Source: Nocardiopsis ansamitocini (GTDB taxonomy: Bacteria; Actinomycetota; Actinomycetes; Streptosporangiales; Streptosporangiaceae). Taken from it: a stretch of DNA of 64,000 bases. The first letter of the stretch is position 1; the number at the start of each line of letters is the position of its first letter. Below the pieces are notes generated by a model, which made no database searches, was not told the DNA's origin, and was given only the letters and a program-made list of their open reading frames with translations. Position numbers and translations under genes: made by a program. The DNA lies in assembly GCF_030268225.1 (NCBI RefSeq), contig NZ_BSQG01000004.1, forward strand, positions 1-64,000. The letters are read 5' to 3'. Of this stretch, positions 45,511-50,991 are shown one piece after another.

Positions 45511-45549
45511 GTTGTTCTCAGATAGAGAAAATCTCTATCTGAGAACAAC
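45511..45549. promoter_or_regulatory. Perfect 39-base palindrome, operator of the NUDIX-regulator operon
   Basis: Arms GTTGTTCTCAGATAGAGA and TCTCTATCTGAGAACAAC (18 bases each) are exact reverse complements separated by AAA. It ends eight bases before the NUDIX gene start, is AT-rich compared with its surroundings, and lies where a repressor would block transcription. The adjacent NrtR-like regulator is the obvious ligand. Confidence 0.85.
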
Positions 45550-45557
45550 TGGGGGTT

Positions 45558-46325
45558 GTGGTGGCCGAACATCCGGGCGGCGAGGCGGGGTTCCTCGCCG
45601 GCTACGATCCGCGGGCGTATGCGCCGGTGGCCGTCACCGTGGACGTGGTCGCCCTGACCATCCGCGGCGGCGAACTGCACGTGCTGTGCGTGCGCCGCGG
45701 ACAGGAACCCTTCCGGGGGGCATGGGCACTGCCCGGGGGGTTCGTGCGCCCCGACGAGGACCTGGCGGATGCGGCCGTGCGCGAGCTCGCCGAGGAGACG
45801 TCGGTGCGCGCGGGCCTGCACCTGGAGCAGTTGGGCGGGTACGGGGCGCCGGGGCGCGACCCGCGCATGCGCGTGGTGTCCATGGCCTATGTGGCCTTGG
45901 CCCCGGACCTGGGAGAGGCGGTGGGCGGGGGGGACGCGGGAGACGCGTCGTGGCTGCCGGTGGCGGGGCTGGCCGCGAAAGTGGGGGCGTTGGCCTTCGA
46001 CCACGACCAGATCCTGGCCGACGCGCTGGAGCGTGCCCGCGCCAAACTGGAGTACACGCCCCTGGCCGCGGCGTTCTTGCCGCGGGAGTTCACCATCGCC
46101 CAGTTGCGCGGGGTGTACGAGGCGGTGTGGGGTCGTGAGCTGCACGCCGCCAACTTCCACCGCAAGGTCGTGTCGGTGCCGGGGTTTGTCACCGACACCG
46201 ACAGCCGTACGGAGTCGGGGGGTGCGCGCGGGGGACGGCGCGCGCGCCTGTACACGCGCGGCGCGGCCACGCTGTTGCATCCGGCGCTGCTGCGCGGCAC
46301 CCCGGGACCCCGGGAGGAGGGGTGA
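45558..46325 (+). CDS. NUDIX-domain transcriptional regulator, NrtR-like
   Basis: 255 residues; GTG 45558 or the next GTG at 45561 (better spaced from GGGGG). Residues 20-150 are a NUDIX fold with ALPGGFVRPDEDLADAAVRELAEET, close to the Nudix box GX5EX7REUXEEXGU. The C-terminal part EFTIAQLRGVYEAVWGREL and HAANFHRKVVSVPGFVTDT is the winged helix seen in NrtR, the NAD-metabolism repressor that binds ADP-ribose. A perfect palindrome directly upstream suggests autorepression. The stop overlaps the next start (GTGA), so the operon of four genes begins here. Confidence 0.9.
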   Translation: MVAEHPGGEAGFLAGYDPRAYAPVAVTVDVVALTIRGGELHVLCVRRGQEPFRGAWALPGGFVRPDEDLADAAVRELAEETSVRAGLHLEQLGGYGAPGRDPRMRVVSMAYVALAPDLGEAVGGGDAGDASWLPVAGLAAKVGALAFDHDQILADALERARAKLEYTPLAAAFLPREFTIAQLRGVYEAVWGRELHAANFHRKVVSVPGFVTDTDSRTESGGARGGRRARLYTRGAATLLHPALLRGTPGPREEG

Positions 46326-47410
46326 GTACCGAGGAGGAGTTCGCCCGGGCGGAGCGGCGGGTGCTGGGGGCCCGCGAGGCCCACGAGCTGTTCGGGCCCG
46401 CGCCCGGGGTGGGGGGCGAGCCGGGGGAGCAGGCGGCGCGGTGCTGGCGTGCTCTGGCGCGGTCCCTGCACCCCGATGCGTGCCCGCCGGGCATGCGCGG
46501 GCGGGCGTCGGTGGCGTTCGCGCGGTTGGGGGTGCTGTGGGGCGGGTACCGCGGGGCCGGCGGCGAGCAGCAGGTGCGCATCGCCACCGCGCAGCGCTCC
46601 TACCGGGTGGGGGCGTTGGTGGCGCGCGGGGACATCGCCAACGTCTACCGGGTGAGCTACACGCGCAAGGGCGGGGAGCAAGGCGAGGCGGTGATGAAGA
46701 TCGCGCGGTCGCCGGGCGACAGCGACCTGATGGCGGCCGAGGCGCACGCGTTGGCGCGTCTTGAGTCGCACGGCCCAGGGCACACCCGCGCCTACGTCCC
46801 GCGCCTGGTGGAGTCGTTCACCCACCGCGACGAGTCCACGGGGGCGCGTCGCGGGGTGACGGTCATGGAGCCCCTGGCGGGGTTCTTCACGCTGGCCGAG
46901 GTCGCGGCGGCCTACCCCGAGGGGGTGGACGCCCGTGACGCGGCGTGGATGTGGCGGCGCCTGCTGGTGGCGCTGGGCCACGGGCACCGGGCGGGGCTGG
47001 TGCACGGTGCGGCCCTGGGCGCCAACGTGCTCGTGCACCCCGGCGAGCACGGGCTGGTCCTGGCCGACTGGTGCTACTCGGTGCGGGCGGGGCAGCCGTT
47101 GGCGGCGATGGTGCAGGGCCAGGAGCGCTGGTACGGGCCGGAGGTGGCCGCGCGGGGGCCGGCCACCGCGGCCACCGACATCTTCACCGCGACCCGCACC
47201 ATCGAGGCGTTGGTGGGCACGCGGATGCCGCCGCGGTTGGCGGTGTTCGCGCGCGGATGCGCGTTGGCCAATCCCGCGGCGCGTCCCGGCGACGCCTGGG
47301 CGCTGCTGGAGGAGTTGGACGAGGTGTTGGAGGAGTTGTGGGGGCCGCGGCGGTGGCGGCCCTTCGCGATGCCCGCCGGGGCCGCTGCCGAGGGTGTGGC
47401 GTCCCGGTAG
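46322..47410 (+). CDS. J-domain-like/pseudokinase fusion protein
   Basis: 362 residues, coupled to the NUDIX gene by GTGA. Residues 15-75 resemble a J-domain, AREAHELFGP followed by CWRALARSLHPDACP, with the HPD tripeptide at 50-52. Residues 95-345 follow a protein-kinase fold: beta-3 Lys126 in GEAVMKIARS, helix C Glu in AAEAHALARL, but the catalytic loop reads LVHGAALGANVLVH (HRD replaced by HGA at 228-230) and DFG is ADWCYSV. Phosphotransfer is therefore unlikely; a scaffold or allosteric role is more plausible. The gap to the next gene is 73 bases. Confidence 0.85.
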   Translation: MSTEEEFARAERRVLGAREAHELFGPAPGVGGEPGEQAARCWRALARSLHPDACPPGMRGRASVAFARLGVLWGGYRGAGGEQQVRIATAQRSYRVGALVARGDIANVYRVSYTRKGGEQGEAVMKIARSPGDSDLMAAEAHALARLESHGPGHTRAYVPRLVESFTHRDESTGARRGVTVMEPLAGFFTLAEVAAAYPEGVDARDAAWMWRRLLVALGHGHRAGLVHGAALGANVLVHPGEHGLVLADWCYSVRAGQPLAAMVQGQERWYGPEVAARGPATAATDIFTATRTIEALVGTRMPPRLAVFARGCALANPAARPGDAWALLEELDEVLEELWGPRRWRPFAMPAGAAAEGVASR

Positions 47411-47483: not shown

Positions 47484-48488
47484 ATGGGAAGCGGACACTG
47501 GTCCACCGATGTGTACGGGGCGGCGCGGGCCTATCGCGCCAGTACCGGGGCGAGCGCGTTCGGCTACACCGACGACGTCAGCGCCAAGGCGCCGCGCAGT
47601 TCCTGGAAGGCCCACCCCAGCCTGGACCCCAAGGGGGTGGGGGTGCGGGAGAGCCGTGATTCCGATGAGCACCCGCTCTCCCAGGCCGTGGCGGTGCTGT
47701 TCGACGTGACCGGGTCGATGGGGCACATTCCGCGTGGTTTGCAGGCCAAGCTGCCGGAGCTGTTCGGGTTGCTGCTGCGCAAGGGCTACTTGGCCCACCC
47801 CCAGATCATGTTCGGCGGTATCGGGGACGCCACGTGCGACCGTGCGCCCTTGCAGGTGGGGCAGTTCGAGTCCGACAACCGTATGGACACCCAGTTGGGC
47901 GACATCCTGTTGGAGGGCGGGGGTGGCGGCCAGATGATGGAGTCCTATGAGCTGGCCATGTACTTCATGGCGCGGCACACGGCCATGGACTGCCTGGACA
48001 AGCGGGGCCGGCGCGGTTACCTGTTCCTCATGGGCGACGAGCTGGCCTATCCGGTGGTCAAGGCCAAGGAGGTGCGTGCGGTGATCGGGGACGACATCCA
48101 CGACGACATTCCCCTGGCCCAGATCGTGGCCGAGCTCAAGGCGAAGTTCGAGGTGTTTCACATCGTGCCGGCGGGCGCCTACCACGCCAAGGACACGCGT
48201 CTGGAGGAGTTCTGGCGGTCGCTGTTCGGCCAGAACGTGATCATGTTGGAGGACCTGGACGCGGTCAGCGAGACGATCGCGGTGACGATCGGGTTGGCCG
48301 AGGAGGCCATCGACCTGGCGCAGGGGCTGGCCGACCTGGGGGACGTGGGGTCCTCGGCGGGGGAGGCGGTGTCCAAGGCGTTGGCGCCCATCGCGCGCGG
48401 GCGCACGGTGGCGGTGCGCGGGGGGCTGCCCGCGGACCTGGGCGGGGGCGACGACGAGGCGGGTCCGGCACGCACCAGGAGACTGTGA
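47484..48488 (+). CDS. vWA-domain protein with DVTGS MIDAS motif
   Basis: 334 residues from ATG 47484, behind AGGGAAGA. AVAVLFDVTGSMGHIPRGLQ (MIDAS residues 74-78) is a metal-ion site variant DxTGS; further ligands probably lie in MFGGIGDATCD and YLFLMGDE. The first 60 residues are Ser/Ala-rich (HWSTDVYGAARAYRAS). No signal peptide or membrane segment, so it acts in the cytoplasm. vWA proteins paired with kinases occur in tellurite/Ter stress systems. The next gene begins one base after its stop. Confidence 0.88.
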   Translation: MGSGHWSTDVYGAARAYRASTGASAFGYTDDVSAKAPRSSWKAHPSLDPKGVGVRESRDSDEHPLSQAVAVLFDVTGSMGHIPRGLQAKLPELFGLLLRKGYLAHPQIMFGGIGDATCDRAPLQVGQFESDNRMDTQLGDILLEGGGGGQMMESYELAMYFMARHTAMDCLDKRGRRGYLFLMGDELAYPVVKAKEVRAVIGDDIHDDIPLAQIVAELKAKFEVFHIVPAGAYHAKDTRLEEFWRSLFGQNVIMLEDLDAVSETIAVTIGLAEEAIDLAQGLADLGDVGSSAGEAVSKALAPIARGRTVAVRGGLPADLGGGDDEAGPARTRRL

Positions 48489-48489
48489 G

Positions 48490-49764
48490 ATGCAGTCCCC
48501 GGTGATCGTGGTGGACCTGGGGTTCGGCGACGCGGGCAAGGGCACGGTCGTGGACTGGTTGTGTGCGCGCGACGGTGGGCGTCCGGCGTCGGTGGTGCGT
48601 TTCAACGGCGGGGCCCAGGCCGCCCACAACGTGGTGACCCCCGATGGGCGCCACCACACCTTCGCGCAGTTGGGGGCGGGGATGTTCACCCCCGGCACCG
48701 TGACGTTGCTGTCGCGGTTCATGCTCGTGGACCCCTTGGCGTTGGCGGCCGAGGCCGCGCACCTGCAGCAGTTGGGGGTGGTGGCGCCGTTGTCGCGGGT
48801 GATGGTGGATGCCGACGCGCTCGTCACCACCCCCTATCATCGGGCCGCCAACCAGGCGCGGGAGCGTGCCCGGGGTGCGGGGCGCCACGGGTCGTGCGGT
48901 ATGGGGGTGGGGGAGACCGCGCGGTACGGGGTGTGCCACGGCGAGCAGGCGCCGCGGGTGGGCGACTGTGCCGATCCGGTGCGCATGCGGCGTCTGCTGG
49001 GGGTGTTGCGCGAACGGTTGGAAGCGGAACTGGGGCCTTTGGGCGGGCCGTCGGTGCAGGAGTGCGCGCAGGTGTTCGCCGCGTTCGCCCAGCGCGTGGA
49101 GGTGGTGGGCGGGGGGCGCTTGAAAGAGTTGGTCGCGCGGGGGCCGGTGGTCATGGAAGGCGCCCAGGGGGTGTTGTTGGACGAGTGGCACGGCCTGCAC
49201 CCCTACACCACGTGGTCGACCACCACCAGCGCCAACGCGCGCGTCCTCCTGGAGGAGGCGGGGGCCGATGCGCCCTACACGTTGGGGGTGGTGCGCACCT
49301 ACACCCCGCGCCACGGGCCGGGGCCGCTGCCCACGGAGGACCCGGGGCTGGGGCGTGCGCTGGTGGAGGCGCACAACGGCACCGGGCCCTGGCAGGGCGC
49401 GTTTCGGGTGGGGCACTTCGACGGCCCGTTGCACCGCTATGCGGTGGCGGCCACCGGGGGGGTGGACGGGGTGGCGTTGACGCACGTGGACGCGCCCGAA
49501 CGGGCGGGGCTGCGGCTGTGTACCGGTTATGACACCGAGTGGGGGCCGATGGAGGAGGTGCCCGCGGCGGTGGTGGGCGATTTGGAGCGTCAGCAGGAGT
49601 TGGGGCGGGTGTTGGACAAGGCGGTACCGCGACTGGTGGAGGTGGGCGCCCGGGAGTGGCCGGGTGTGGTGGAGCAGGCGCTGGGCGCACCGGTGGTGGT
49701 GGCGTCGAGGGGGCCCGGGCGCGGCGACAAGCAGGTGCGTGCGGCGGGGCGCGCGGTGGTGTGA
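48490..49764 (+). CDS. Divergent adenylosuccinate synthetase-like protein (PurA paralogue)
   Basis: 424 residues, normal PurA length. The N-terminal loop GFGDAGKGTVVDWL retains the catalytic Asp14 (PurA: GDEGKGK) and FNGGAQAAHNVV retains His46. IMP-contact EGAQGVLLDEWHGLHPYTTW is recognisable. Two sites differ: the aspartate-binding RRRRTGWLD of PurA is QGAFRVGHFD (about residues 302-311), and the GTP base motif TKLD is THVD (about 329-332). Purine biosynthesis is therefore unlikely to be its main job. It may act on a modified nucleotide, as the phage enzyme PurZ does (inference). It is last in the operon. Confidence 0.88.
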   Translation: MQSPVIVVDLGFGDAGKGTVVDWLCARDGGRPASVVRFNGGAQAAHNVVTPDGRHHTFAQLGAGMFTPGTVTLLSRFMLVDPLALAAEAAHLQQLGVVAPLSRVMVDADALVTTPYHRAANQARERARGAGRHGSCGMGVGETARYGVCHGEQAPRVGDCADPVRMRRLLGVLRERLEAELGPLGGPSVQECAQVFAAFAQRVEVVGGGRLKELVARGPVVMEGAQGVLLDEWHGLHPYTTWSTTTSANARVLLEEAGADAPYTLGVVRTYTPRHGPGPLPTEDPGLGRALVEAHNGTGPWQGAFRVGHFDGPLHRYAVAATGGVDGVALTHVDAPERAGLRLCTGYDTEWGPMEEVPAAVVGDLERQQELGRVLDKAVPRLVEVGAREWPGVVEQALGAPVVVASRGPGRGDKQVRAAGRAVV

Positions 49765-49836: not shown

Positions 49837-50142
49837 CTAGGAGGCCAGCTGTTCGCGTGCGCTGTGATCGGGGCCGGTCGGCTCGTCGGCGCCGTGCTCG
49901 GGCCGGTTGATGTCGGCCCACACCGTGTCGAGGGAGAGGCCGAGGACGTCGGCGATCGCGGCGATGGTGGGGAAGGCGGGGGTGGCTACGCGGCCCGACT
50001 CGATCTTGCGCAGGGTTTCGGGTGAGACGCGTGCGTCGAGTGCGGTCTCAAGCATCGAGCGTTCTCCCCTTGCGCGACGCAATAGGGCGCCGAGGCGCTG
50101 TCCGCGCTCGACCTCTGCGGGTGTGAGCGGCAACCTGACCAT
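49837..50142 (-). CDS. XRE-family helix-turn-helix regulator
   Basis: 101 residues from ATG 50142. The helix-turn-helix reads RGQRLGALLRRARGER, METALDARVSPETLRKIESG and PAFPTIAAIADVLGLSLD. The C-terminal 25 residues are acidic and probably unstructured. It is divergent from a methionine aminopeptidase gene with repeated CCGGGATA between them, so it probably controls that gene and itself. Confidence 0.9.
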   Translation of the reverse strand: MVRLPLTPAEVERGQRLGALLRRARGERSMLETALDARVSPETLRKIESGRVATPAFPTIAAIADVLGLSLDTVWADINRPEHGADEPTGPDHSAREQLAS

Positions 50143-50208: not shown

Positions 50209-50991
50209 ATGATCGAGATCCTGAACCCCACCAGCCTGCCCCAGGCAAGAGAGACGGGTGCCCTGGTCGCGGACATTTTGCAGACCATGAGGAGCCGTAG
50301 CGCCGTGGGCACGAACCTCCTGGACATCGACCGGTGGGCCAAGGCCATGATCGCCGAGGCCGGGGCGCAGTCCTGCTACGTCGACTACGCGCCGTCCTTC
50401 GGGCGCGGACCGTTTGGCCACTACATCTGCACGGCCGTCAACGACGCCGTGCTCCACGGACGGCCCCACGACTACGCGCTCGGGGACGGCGACCTGCTGA
50501 CACTCGACCTCGCCGTCTCCAAGGGCGGAGTCGCGGCAGACGCCGCCATCAGCTTCATCGTGGGCGATTTTACGCCCCCGGAGAGCGTCGCGCTGATCAG
50601 CGCGACCGAACGGGCGTTGAGCGCGGGCATCGCGGCGGCCGGGCCCGGAGCGCGCATCGGCGACATCTCCCATGCCATCGGCACGGTCCTCAGCGAGGCG
50701 GGGTATCGGATCAACACCGAGTTCGGAGGTCATGGCATCGGATCGACGATGCACCAGGACCCGCACGTCTCGAACACCGGACGCCCCGGCCGCGGATACA
50801 AACTGCGTCCCGGGCTGCTGCTCGCACTGGAGCCGTGGGTCATGGCCGACACCGACGAGCTCGTCACCGATGCCGACGGGTGGACGCTGCGAAGCGCGAC
50901 GGGCTGCCGGACGGCACACAGTGAGCACACGATCGCCATCACCGAGGACGGAGCCGAGATCCTCACCGTGGCGGGGCGGGCGCAGCCGTGA
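50209..50991 (+). CDS. map: Type I methionyl aminopeptidase
   Basis: 260 residues from ATG 50209. The five metal ligands are present: Asp pair in LTLDLAVSKGGVAADAAISF, His in FGGHGIGSTMHQDPHVSN, Glu in LLLALEPWVMADT and Glu in RTAHSEHTIAITEDG. YICTAVNDAVLHGRP is also family-typical. It removes the initiator Met from new proteins. Because the organism surely has a housekeeping copy elsewhere, this regulator-linked copy may be accessory or resistance-related (inference). Confidence 0.93.
   Translation: MIEILNPTSLPQARETGALVADILQTMRSRSAVGTNLLDIDRWAKAMIAEAGAQSCYVDYAPSFGRGPFGHYICTAVNDAVLHGRPHDYALGDGDLLTLDLAVSKGGVAADAAISFIVGDFTPPESVALISATERALSAGIAAAGPGARIGDISHAIGTVLSEAGYRINTEFGGHGIGSTMHQDPHVSNTGRPGRGYKLRPGLLLALEPWVMADTDELVTDADGWTLRSATGCRTAHSEHTIAITEDGAEILTVAGRAQP

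Follow-up and report, generated by a model that had tools for sequence, protein, structure and literature searches.

The PurA-like gene of the window

Does a second adenylosuccinate synthetase (PurA)-like gene in an actinomycete make adenylosuccinate, or has the enzyme been turned to another reaction? This question is raised by the window, the whole stretch of 64,000 nucleotides of Nocardiopsis ansamitocini DNA analysed here, in which the following gene was examined.

48490..49764, + strand: PurA-like protein of a third clade, neither PurA nor PurZ (Pfam, equivalog scores, conservation, model, tree)

The open reading frame spans exactly these positions and encodes 424 aa from an ATG start, with the N-terminus MQSPVIVVDLGFGDAGKGTVVDW. 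Residues 6–411 matched Pfam PF00709 (5.5e-59, 199 bits), while the canonical PurA of the same genome (5.53 Mb, 42 contigs), located on another contig, scored 609 bits, and the two proteins were 31% identical. The gene is thus a genuine PurA paralogue, as an earlier note on this DNA had proposed. The PurA equivalog TIGR00184 gave 127.7 bits, far below its cut-off of 395.55, and the amino_Aden_PurZ model barely matched the protein (39 of 300 bits). An AlphaFold2 model built with 43 sequences reached a mean pLDDT of 89.6 and a pTM of 0.90. PurA structures were the best PDB matches of this model (1iwe: Z 40.1, rmsd 2.5, 392 aligned residues, 23% identity), followed by PurZ structures with Z of 26 to 32, indicating that the protein is predicted to adopt the full-length PurA fold.

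Catalytic residues are kept and the aspartate site is replaced

Residues are numbered as in E. coli PurA unless stated otherwise. In about 100 actinomycete orthologues, Asp13, Lys16, His41, Gln224, and Asp333 were kept, fixed or nearly so; the first three correspond to Asp14, Lys17, and His46 of the PurA-like protein, of which Asp14 and His46 had been correctly recognized before. Also fixed or nearly so were the changes Asn38 to Gln, Thr128-Thr129 to Ser-Cys, Pro135 to Glu, Val273 to His, Thr300-Thr301 to Trp-Gln, Arg305 to Phe, Trp309 to His, and Lys331 to His, and Arg303 was missing by alignment. In the numbering of the window protein, W301, Q302, H275, S135, C136, H309, and H332 were invariant among these orthologues, and the altered motifs QGAFRVGHFD (residues 302–311) and THVD (331–334) read exactly as reported in the note.

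A deeper set comprised 44 clade members, including phage and plasmid copies, two of which were without the Asp13/Lys16/His41 region. Asp13, Lys16, and His41 were kept in 42/42 and Gln224 in 44/44, and Asp333, which contacts guanine, was kept in 42/44. We take Thr301, Arg305, and Arg131 of E. coli PurA to be aspartate-site residues, and Asn38, Thr129, and Arg143 to be ligands of the 5ʹ-phosphate. Thr301 was replaced by Gln in 43 of the 44 members and Arg305 by Phe, Leu, or Met in 40, while Val273 was His in all 44, Thr129 was Cys in 42, Asn38 was Gln in 40, and both Arg143 and Arg131 were lost in the clade. Arg303 was absent from 44/44, the placement of this one-residue deletion of the aspartate loop (303, 304, or 305) being dependent on the alignment. 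In PurA, Arg303 contacts the ribose of IMP and the free aspartate (PMC8342488).

Because the changes are invariant in about 100 orthologues, with Q302 and H275 kept in 43/44 and 44/44 of the deep clade, they have been selected and reflect neither chance nor decay or drift. From the conserved catalytic residues and the clade-wide replacement of aspartate-site residues, we infer that the chemistry of purine activation is kept and the aspartate site rebuilt; much of the predicted 5ʹ-phosphate site is changed as well. Of the altered amino-acid and GTP sites described in the note, the former was borne out by the replacement of the aspartate site, whereas the guanine site is less altered: His replaces Lys331, yet Asp333, Ser414, Gly416, and Pro417 are largely retained. 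Among the substrates that the note had proposed, another amino acid or nucleophile is well supported by the alignments, in which every aspartate-site residue checked is replaced across the clade. Another nucleotide is plausible in view of the lost 5ʹ-phosphate ligands, and another phosphate donor gains little from a clade that keeps the guanine-contacting Asp333.

The clade is separate from PurA and PurZ

An IQ-TREE phylogeny was built from 52 sequences (44 clade members, six canonical PurA, and two PurZ, with no archaeal PurA). The 44 clade members lay on one side (100/99), PurA on another (96/91), and PurZ on a third (100/100), and the stem of the PurA-like clade measured 1.38 changes per column. 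In this tree the clade is separate from both PurA and PurZ, and the root, drawn arbitrarily, gives no order of branching. All phage members of PurZ carry Ser in place of Asp13 (PMC12884076). The same column of our alignment held Ser in the S-2L and phiVC8 PurZ and Asp in 42/42 members of the PurA-like clade. The parallel with PurZ that the note had drawn therefore points the wrong way, as PurZ loses Asp13, whereas the PurA-like clade retains that residue and has lost the aspartate loop instead. In a 2026 tree of viral PurA homologues, 402 of 767 sequences fell into PurA or PurZ groups (PMC12884076), and the PurA-like clade may be part of the remaining sequences.

The name ‘2-aminooxy adenylosuccinate synthetase’ is used in PHROG 1211, in RefSeq records of C1 phages, and for the true PurZ of phiVC8. 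Because the true PurZ bears the same name, we suggest that the name has spread by similarity and was apparently copied from it. About 190 PurA-like genes of cluster C1 mycobacteriophages (e.g. phage I3, locus L113, 11992–13320) are labelled either PurA-like or with this name; their residues and the tree argue against PurZ function.

A conserved cassette with Nudix, kinase-like, and vWA genes

The PurA-like gene is the last in a cassette on one strand, in which it is preceded, in this order, by the following genes.

45558..46325, + strand: Nudix and NrtR-type winged-helix (wHTH) protein, probable operon repressor (Pfam NUDIX 6.7e-20, NrtR_WHD 5.6e-13; 77/78 loci)
46322..47410, + strand: J-domain-like and protein-kinase-like protein, possible pseudokinase (weak Pfam Pkinase/APH; PHROG 3043 kinase 2.9e-46; 76/78 loci)
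47484..48488, + strand: vWA protein with MIDAS motif DVTGS and Met-Gly N-terminus (PHROG 2971 4.1e-72; AlphaFold model; fold match)

All of the 78 loci longer than 9 kb had the vWA and PurA-like genes; 77 also had the Nudix gene and 76 the kinase-like one. The median gene spacings in orthologous cassettes were −4, 10, and −4 bp, so the genes overlap or nearly abut. Neither purB nor any further purine gene turned up in the cassette, whether among the window neighbours or at the orthologous loci. Directly downstream of the PurA-like gene, a small HTH gene lies on the opposite strand (49837–50142, −), and a type I methionine aminopeptidase gene (TIGR00500, 210.8 bits) occupies 50209–50991 of the window.

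The J-domain assignment of the kinase-like protein draws on a conserved HPD motif and on weak matches to DnaJ among its homologues from phages and Agrobacterium. Its kinase part keeps the Lys, the Glu, and the DFG-type Asp, and because HRD, with its Asp, is replaced (HGAxxxxN/H), the protein may be a pseudokinase. The vWA protein had no Pfam match, and PHROG 2971 is a family of unknown function. In its AlphaFold model (pLDDT 92.5), a vWA/I-domain fold was recognized from about residue 64 on (residues 65–274; Z 15.7 to an integrin beta I domain), and the MIDAS residues D74-x-T76-x-S78 were invariant across 59 vWA sequences.

A search with PADLOC for known defence systems gave no match for the PurA-like or vWA protein, only weak generic kinase and Nudix matches, and a known defence system was rejected as the identity of the cassette. 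We found no description of the PurA-like/Nudix/vWA/kinase cassette in open-licence PMC papers, a search scope that may have missed an existing one. The cassette, with its copies in phages and on plasmids, does not figure in the earlier note and is more informative than what the note describes.

A palindrome upstream of the Nudix gene

45511..45549, no strand: 39-bp perfect palindrome GTTGTTCTCAGATAGAGA-AAA-TCTCTATCTGAGAACAAC, probable operator (ends 8 bp before the Nudix start)

The arms of this palindrome scored 18, compared with at most 8 in shuffled sequences, and its core pattern occurred once in the whole genome, at the PurA-like cassette. A site resembling TTCTCAn4GAGAn3TCTCn4TGAG was present in 50/80 orthologous upstream regions versus 109/16,000 random windows (0.7%), for the most part 33 to 40 bp upstream of the start, and several of the remaining regions contained one half. 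The Nudix box of the Nudix-wHTH protein is intact, and its score against the NrtR equivalog NF050029 (126 of 400 bits) is below the cut-off. By analogy with NrtR, the natural reading is that this protein is a putative autoregulating repressor of the cassette. In the cassettes of the Rhodococcus and Tsukamurella plasmids, the Nudix gene comes last, and a different palindrome is located just before the kinase-like gene (locus L114, 5690–5830: TTTTAGTCGTTTAGACTAAAA; locus L116, 7700–7830: TTTCTAGTCGTATAGACTAGAAA).

Distribution among actinomycetes, plasmids, and phages

The cassette was present in about 80 actinomycete genomes. Within the family of the window organism, 67 of 201 sampled genomes contained a strong PurA-like orthologue, and the vWA gene was detected in 2/296 genomes sampled across the phylum Actinomycetota, depicting a patchy distribution. 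Cassette genes were also carried by plasmids of Rhodococcus, Tsukamurella, Variovorax, Agrobacterium vitis, and Acetobacter, and by phage records of Mycobacterium (189, cluster C1 type), Rhizobium (10), and Vibrio (6), for which the counts from the PurA-like and vWA queries agree. In phage I3 they are genes 270, 271, and 273. The Rhodovulum sp. MB263 plasmid pRSMBA (locus L122, 6101–9029) carries Nudix, kinase-like, and vWA genes with an IS3 transposase nearby; its vWA protein starts with MGNG, and no PurA-like gene was found beside these genes. Some C1 phages (e.g. CharlieB gene 252, Yassified gene 258, Wally gene 259) have a vWA match that is split into two parts over about 1.7 kb, and an HNH endonuclease is annotated underneath some of the split matches; a homing endonuclease has apparently inserted into vWA there.

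A scan of viral contigs gave 239 PurA-like and 324 vWA relatives. For the best 80 of each, two sets that overlap in some contigs, the other gene lay within about 8 kb in 76/80 each way, and a kinase-like gene lay within about 8 kb in 55. Pairwise distances of the vWA, PurA-like, and kinase-like proteins were correlated with r of 0.68–0.79, while all of 500 permutations gave at most 0.23. Because these correlations exceed every permutation and the genes co-occur in viruses, there is good evidence that the three genes are inherited as one unit. Clustering of the viral neighbours gave no further near-universal partner beyond the cassette genes. Recurrent neighbours included a nicotinamide/nicotinate phosphoribosyltransferase gene (7/80 PurA-like loci), RtcB, and a poly(A)-polymerase/tRNA-nucleotidyltransferase-type gene, counts that have no background rate for large phages. 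In Vibrio phage phiKT1024 (locus L118, 5038–5682 and 11403–12911), a NADAR gene is located three genes before vWA and a TROVE (Ro60-like) gene downstream of the vWA/PurA-like pair. Together with the Nudix regulator, the NADAR, TROVE, and phosphoribosyltransferase neighbours, counted without a background rate, hint at NAD or RNA-end metabolism.

Proposed function

The clade, the residue changes, the cassette, the co-diversification of its genes, and the upstream palindrome are established. For the function, we give about even odds to the reading that the PurA-like protein is a GTP-dependent purine-activating ligase using a nucleophile other than aspartate and working with the vWA protein in a regulated cassette. 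It is the simplest reading that accounts at once for a catalytic core that is kept, an aspartate site that is lost, and partners that are near-obligate. The enzyme would phosphorylate the 6-oxo group of a purine with GTP, as PurA does, and an amine or other nucleophile, not free aspartate, would displace the phosphate; the purine would probably be unlike IMP around the 5ʹ-phosphate. The vWA and J-domain-kinase-like proteins would present or select the target, with the PurA-like protein as the catalytic end, and the Nudix-wHTH repressor would sense an ADP-ribose- or NAD-like nucleotide and control the operon. The system may act in a nucleotide conflict between phage and host. An entirely new pocket might nevertheless accommodate aspartate.

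A less likely reading, to which we nevertheless assign an appreciable minority chance, is that the protein is a non-catalytic GTP/purine-binding subunit, its PurA fold serving as a nucleotide sensor or switch for a complex of the vWA and J-domain-kinase proteins. The loss of substrate-site residues, the co-diversification of vWA and PurA-like proteins, and partners that look like scaffold or chaperone proteins, including a kinase-like protein without the HRD Asp, are consistent with it, and this loss of the HRD Asp together with the patchy distribution (2/296 genomes) would also fit a regulatory, non-enzymatic complex. However, the phage and bacterial members, highly diverged as they are, share without variation the residues of phosphoryl transfer (Asp13, His41, Lys16, Gln224), beyond what binding needs, and the new residues Gln301 and His273 are just as fixed, which is the pattern of an active site. 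Improbable in our judgement is a second, conventional adenylosuccinate synthetase whose aspartate loop has drifted. Such an enzyme would explain the PurA fold and the core catalytic residues, but the replacements at all aspartate-site positions checked are fixed, the TIGR00184 score is 127.7 against a cut-off of 395.6, the clade is separate, and the genome already has a canonical PurA while the cassette has no purB or other purine gene. A PurZ-like enzyme making a modified nucleotide for phage or host DNA, the rival least consistent with the data, was rejected as very improbable: the family is common in large phages and carries the PurZ name in phage databases, but that name is apparently copied from phiVC8, Asp13 is kept in 42/42 members where all phage PurZ have Ser (PMC12884076), the clade branches apart from PurZ, the PurZ model gives 39 of 300 bits, the family also occurs in actinomycete chromosomes, and no datZ- or mazZ-like gene was found among the window neighbours scanned.

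If the PurA-like protein is a purine ligase with another nucleophile, one specific acceptor, which we regard as a long shot, would be the N-terminal glycine amine of the vWA partner, joined to C6 of a purine nucleotide to give a protein–nucleotide conjugate. Of 200 distinct vWA sequences containing a MIDAS motif, 196 had, at the expected distance, an ATG codon with Gly-x-[Gly/Ala/Ser/Thr/Asn] after it, and the other four had none. The search demanded Gly after ATG, so that 196/200 counts the sequences in which such a start exists; 16 further viral rows, in which the MIDAS expression found no match, were left out of the count. A chance ATG-Gly start in a stretch of that length should be uncommon, by a rough estimate a few per cent. 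The N-terminal consensus was Met-Gly-[Ser/Gly]-[Gly/Ser]-x-[Trp/Phe/Tyr], and translation upstream of the ATG looked unrelated between loci. An initial Met is as a rule cleaved off when Gly follows it, so that Gly would become the first residue of the mature protein; its exposed alpha-amine would be chemically like that of aspartate without the side-chain carboxylate expected to be bound by the lost arginines. The N-terminus was modelled as fairly ordered (mean pLDDT 88 for residues 1–10), and an ordinary structural element is at least as likely as conjugation. The Met-Gly start also occurs in vWA proteins of loci with no PurA-like gene seen nearby, which is neither for nor against the conjugate, as that gene may lie elsewhere.

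A textbook enzyme fold apparently serves a different ligation here, in a cassette common to actinomycete chromosomes, plasmids, and many large phages, among them about 190 sequenced cluster C1 mycobacteriophages, for which a laboratory strain serves as host. The database names adenylosuccinate synthetase and 2-aminooxy adenylosuccinate synthetase are unsupported by the sequence.

Comparison with known systems

The ARG-centred counter-ADP-ribosylation systems (PMC9503650, section 3.8) also combine a Nudix-wHTH regulator with a vWA protein in an operon. That section does not include a PurA-like or J-domain-kinase protein, and no ADP-ribosylglycohydrolase was found in the PurA-like cassette. With NrtR, an ADP-ribose-sensing Nudix-wHTH repressor, the first cassette gene shares its domain architecture and an upstream palindrome, but it falls far below the equivalog cut-off and the sole exact site in the genome is at its own cassette. 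PurZ and PurZ0 of Z-genome phages likewise belong to the PurA superfamily, are often phage-borne, and have altered substrate sites, whereas PurZ has Ser13 in place of Asp13 and occupies a separate branch. Compared with PurA (EC 6.3.4.4), the PurA-like protein shares the whole fold (Z about 40), Asp13, His41, Lys16, and Gln224, and the guanine-contacting Asp333. It differs in the loop, TTGRxRR in PurA and WQG-xFR with one residue fewer here, in the changes of Thr129 to Cys, Asn38 to Gln, and Val273 to His with the loss of Arg143 and Arg131, and in forming a separate clade that resides in a cassette with vWA, J-domain-kinase, and Nudix proteins.
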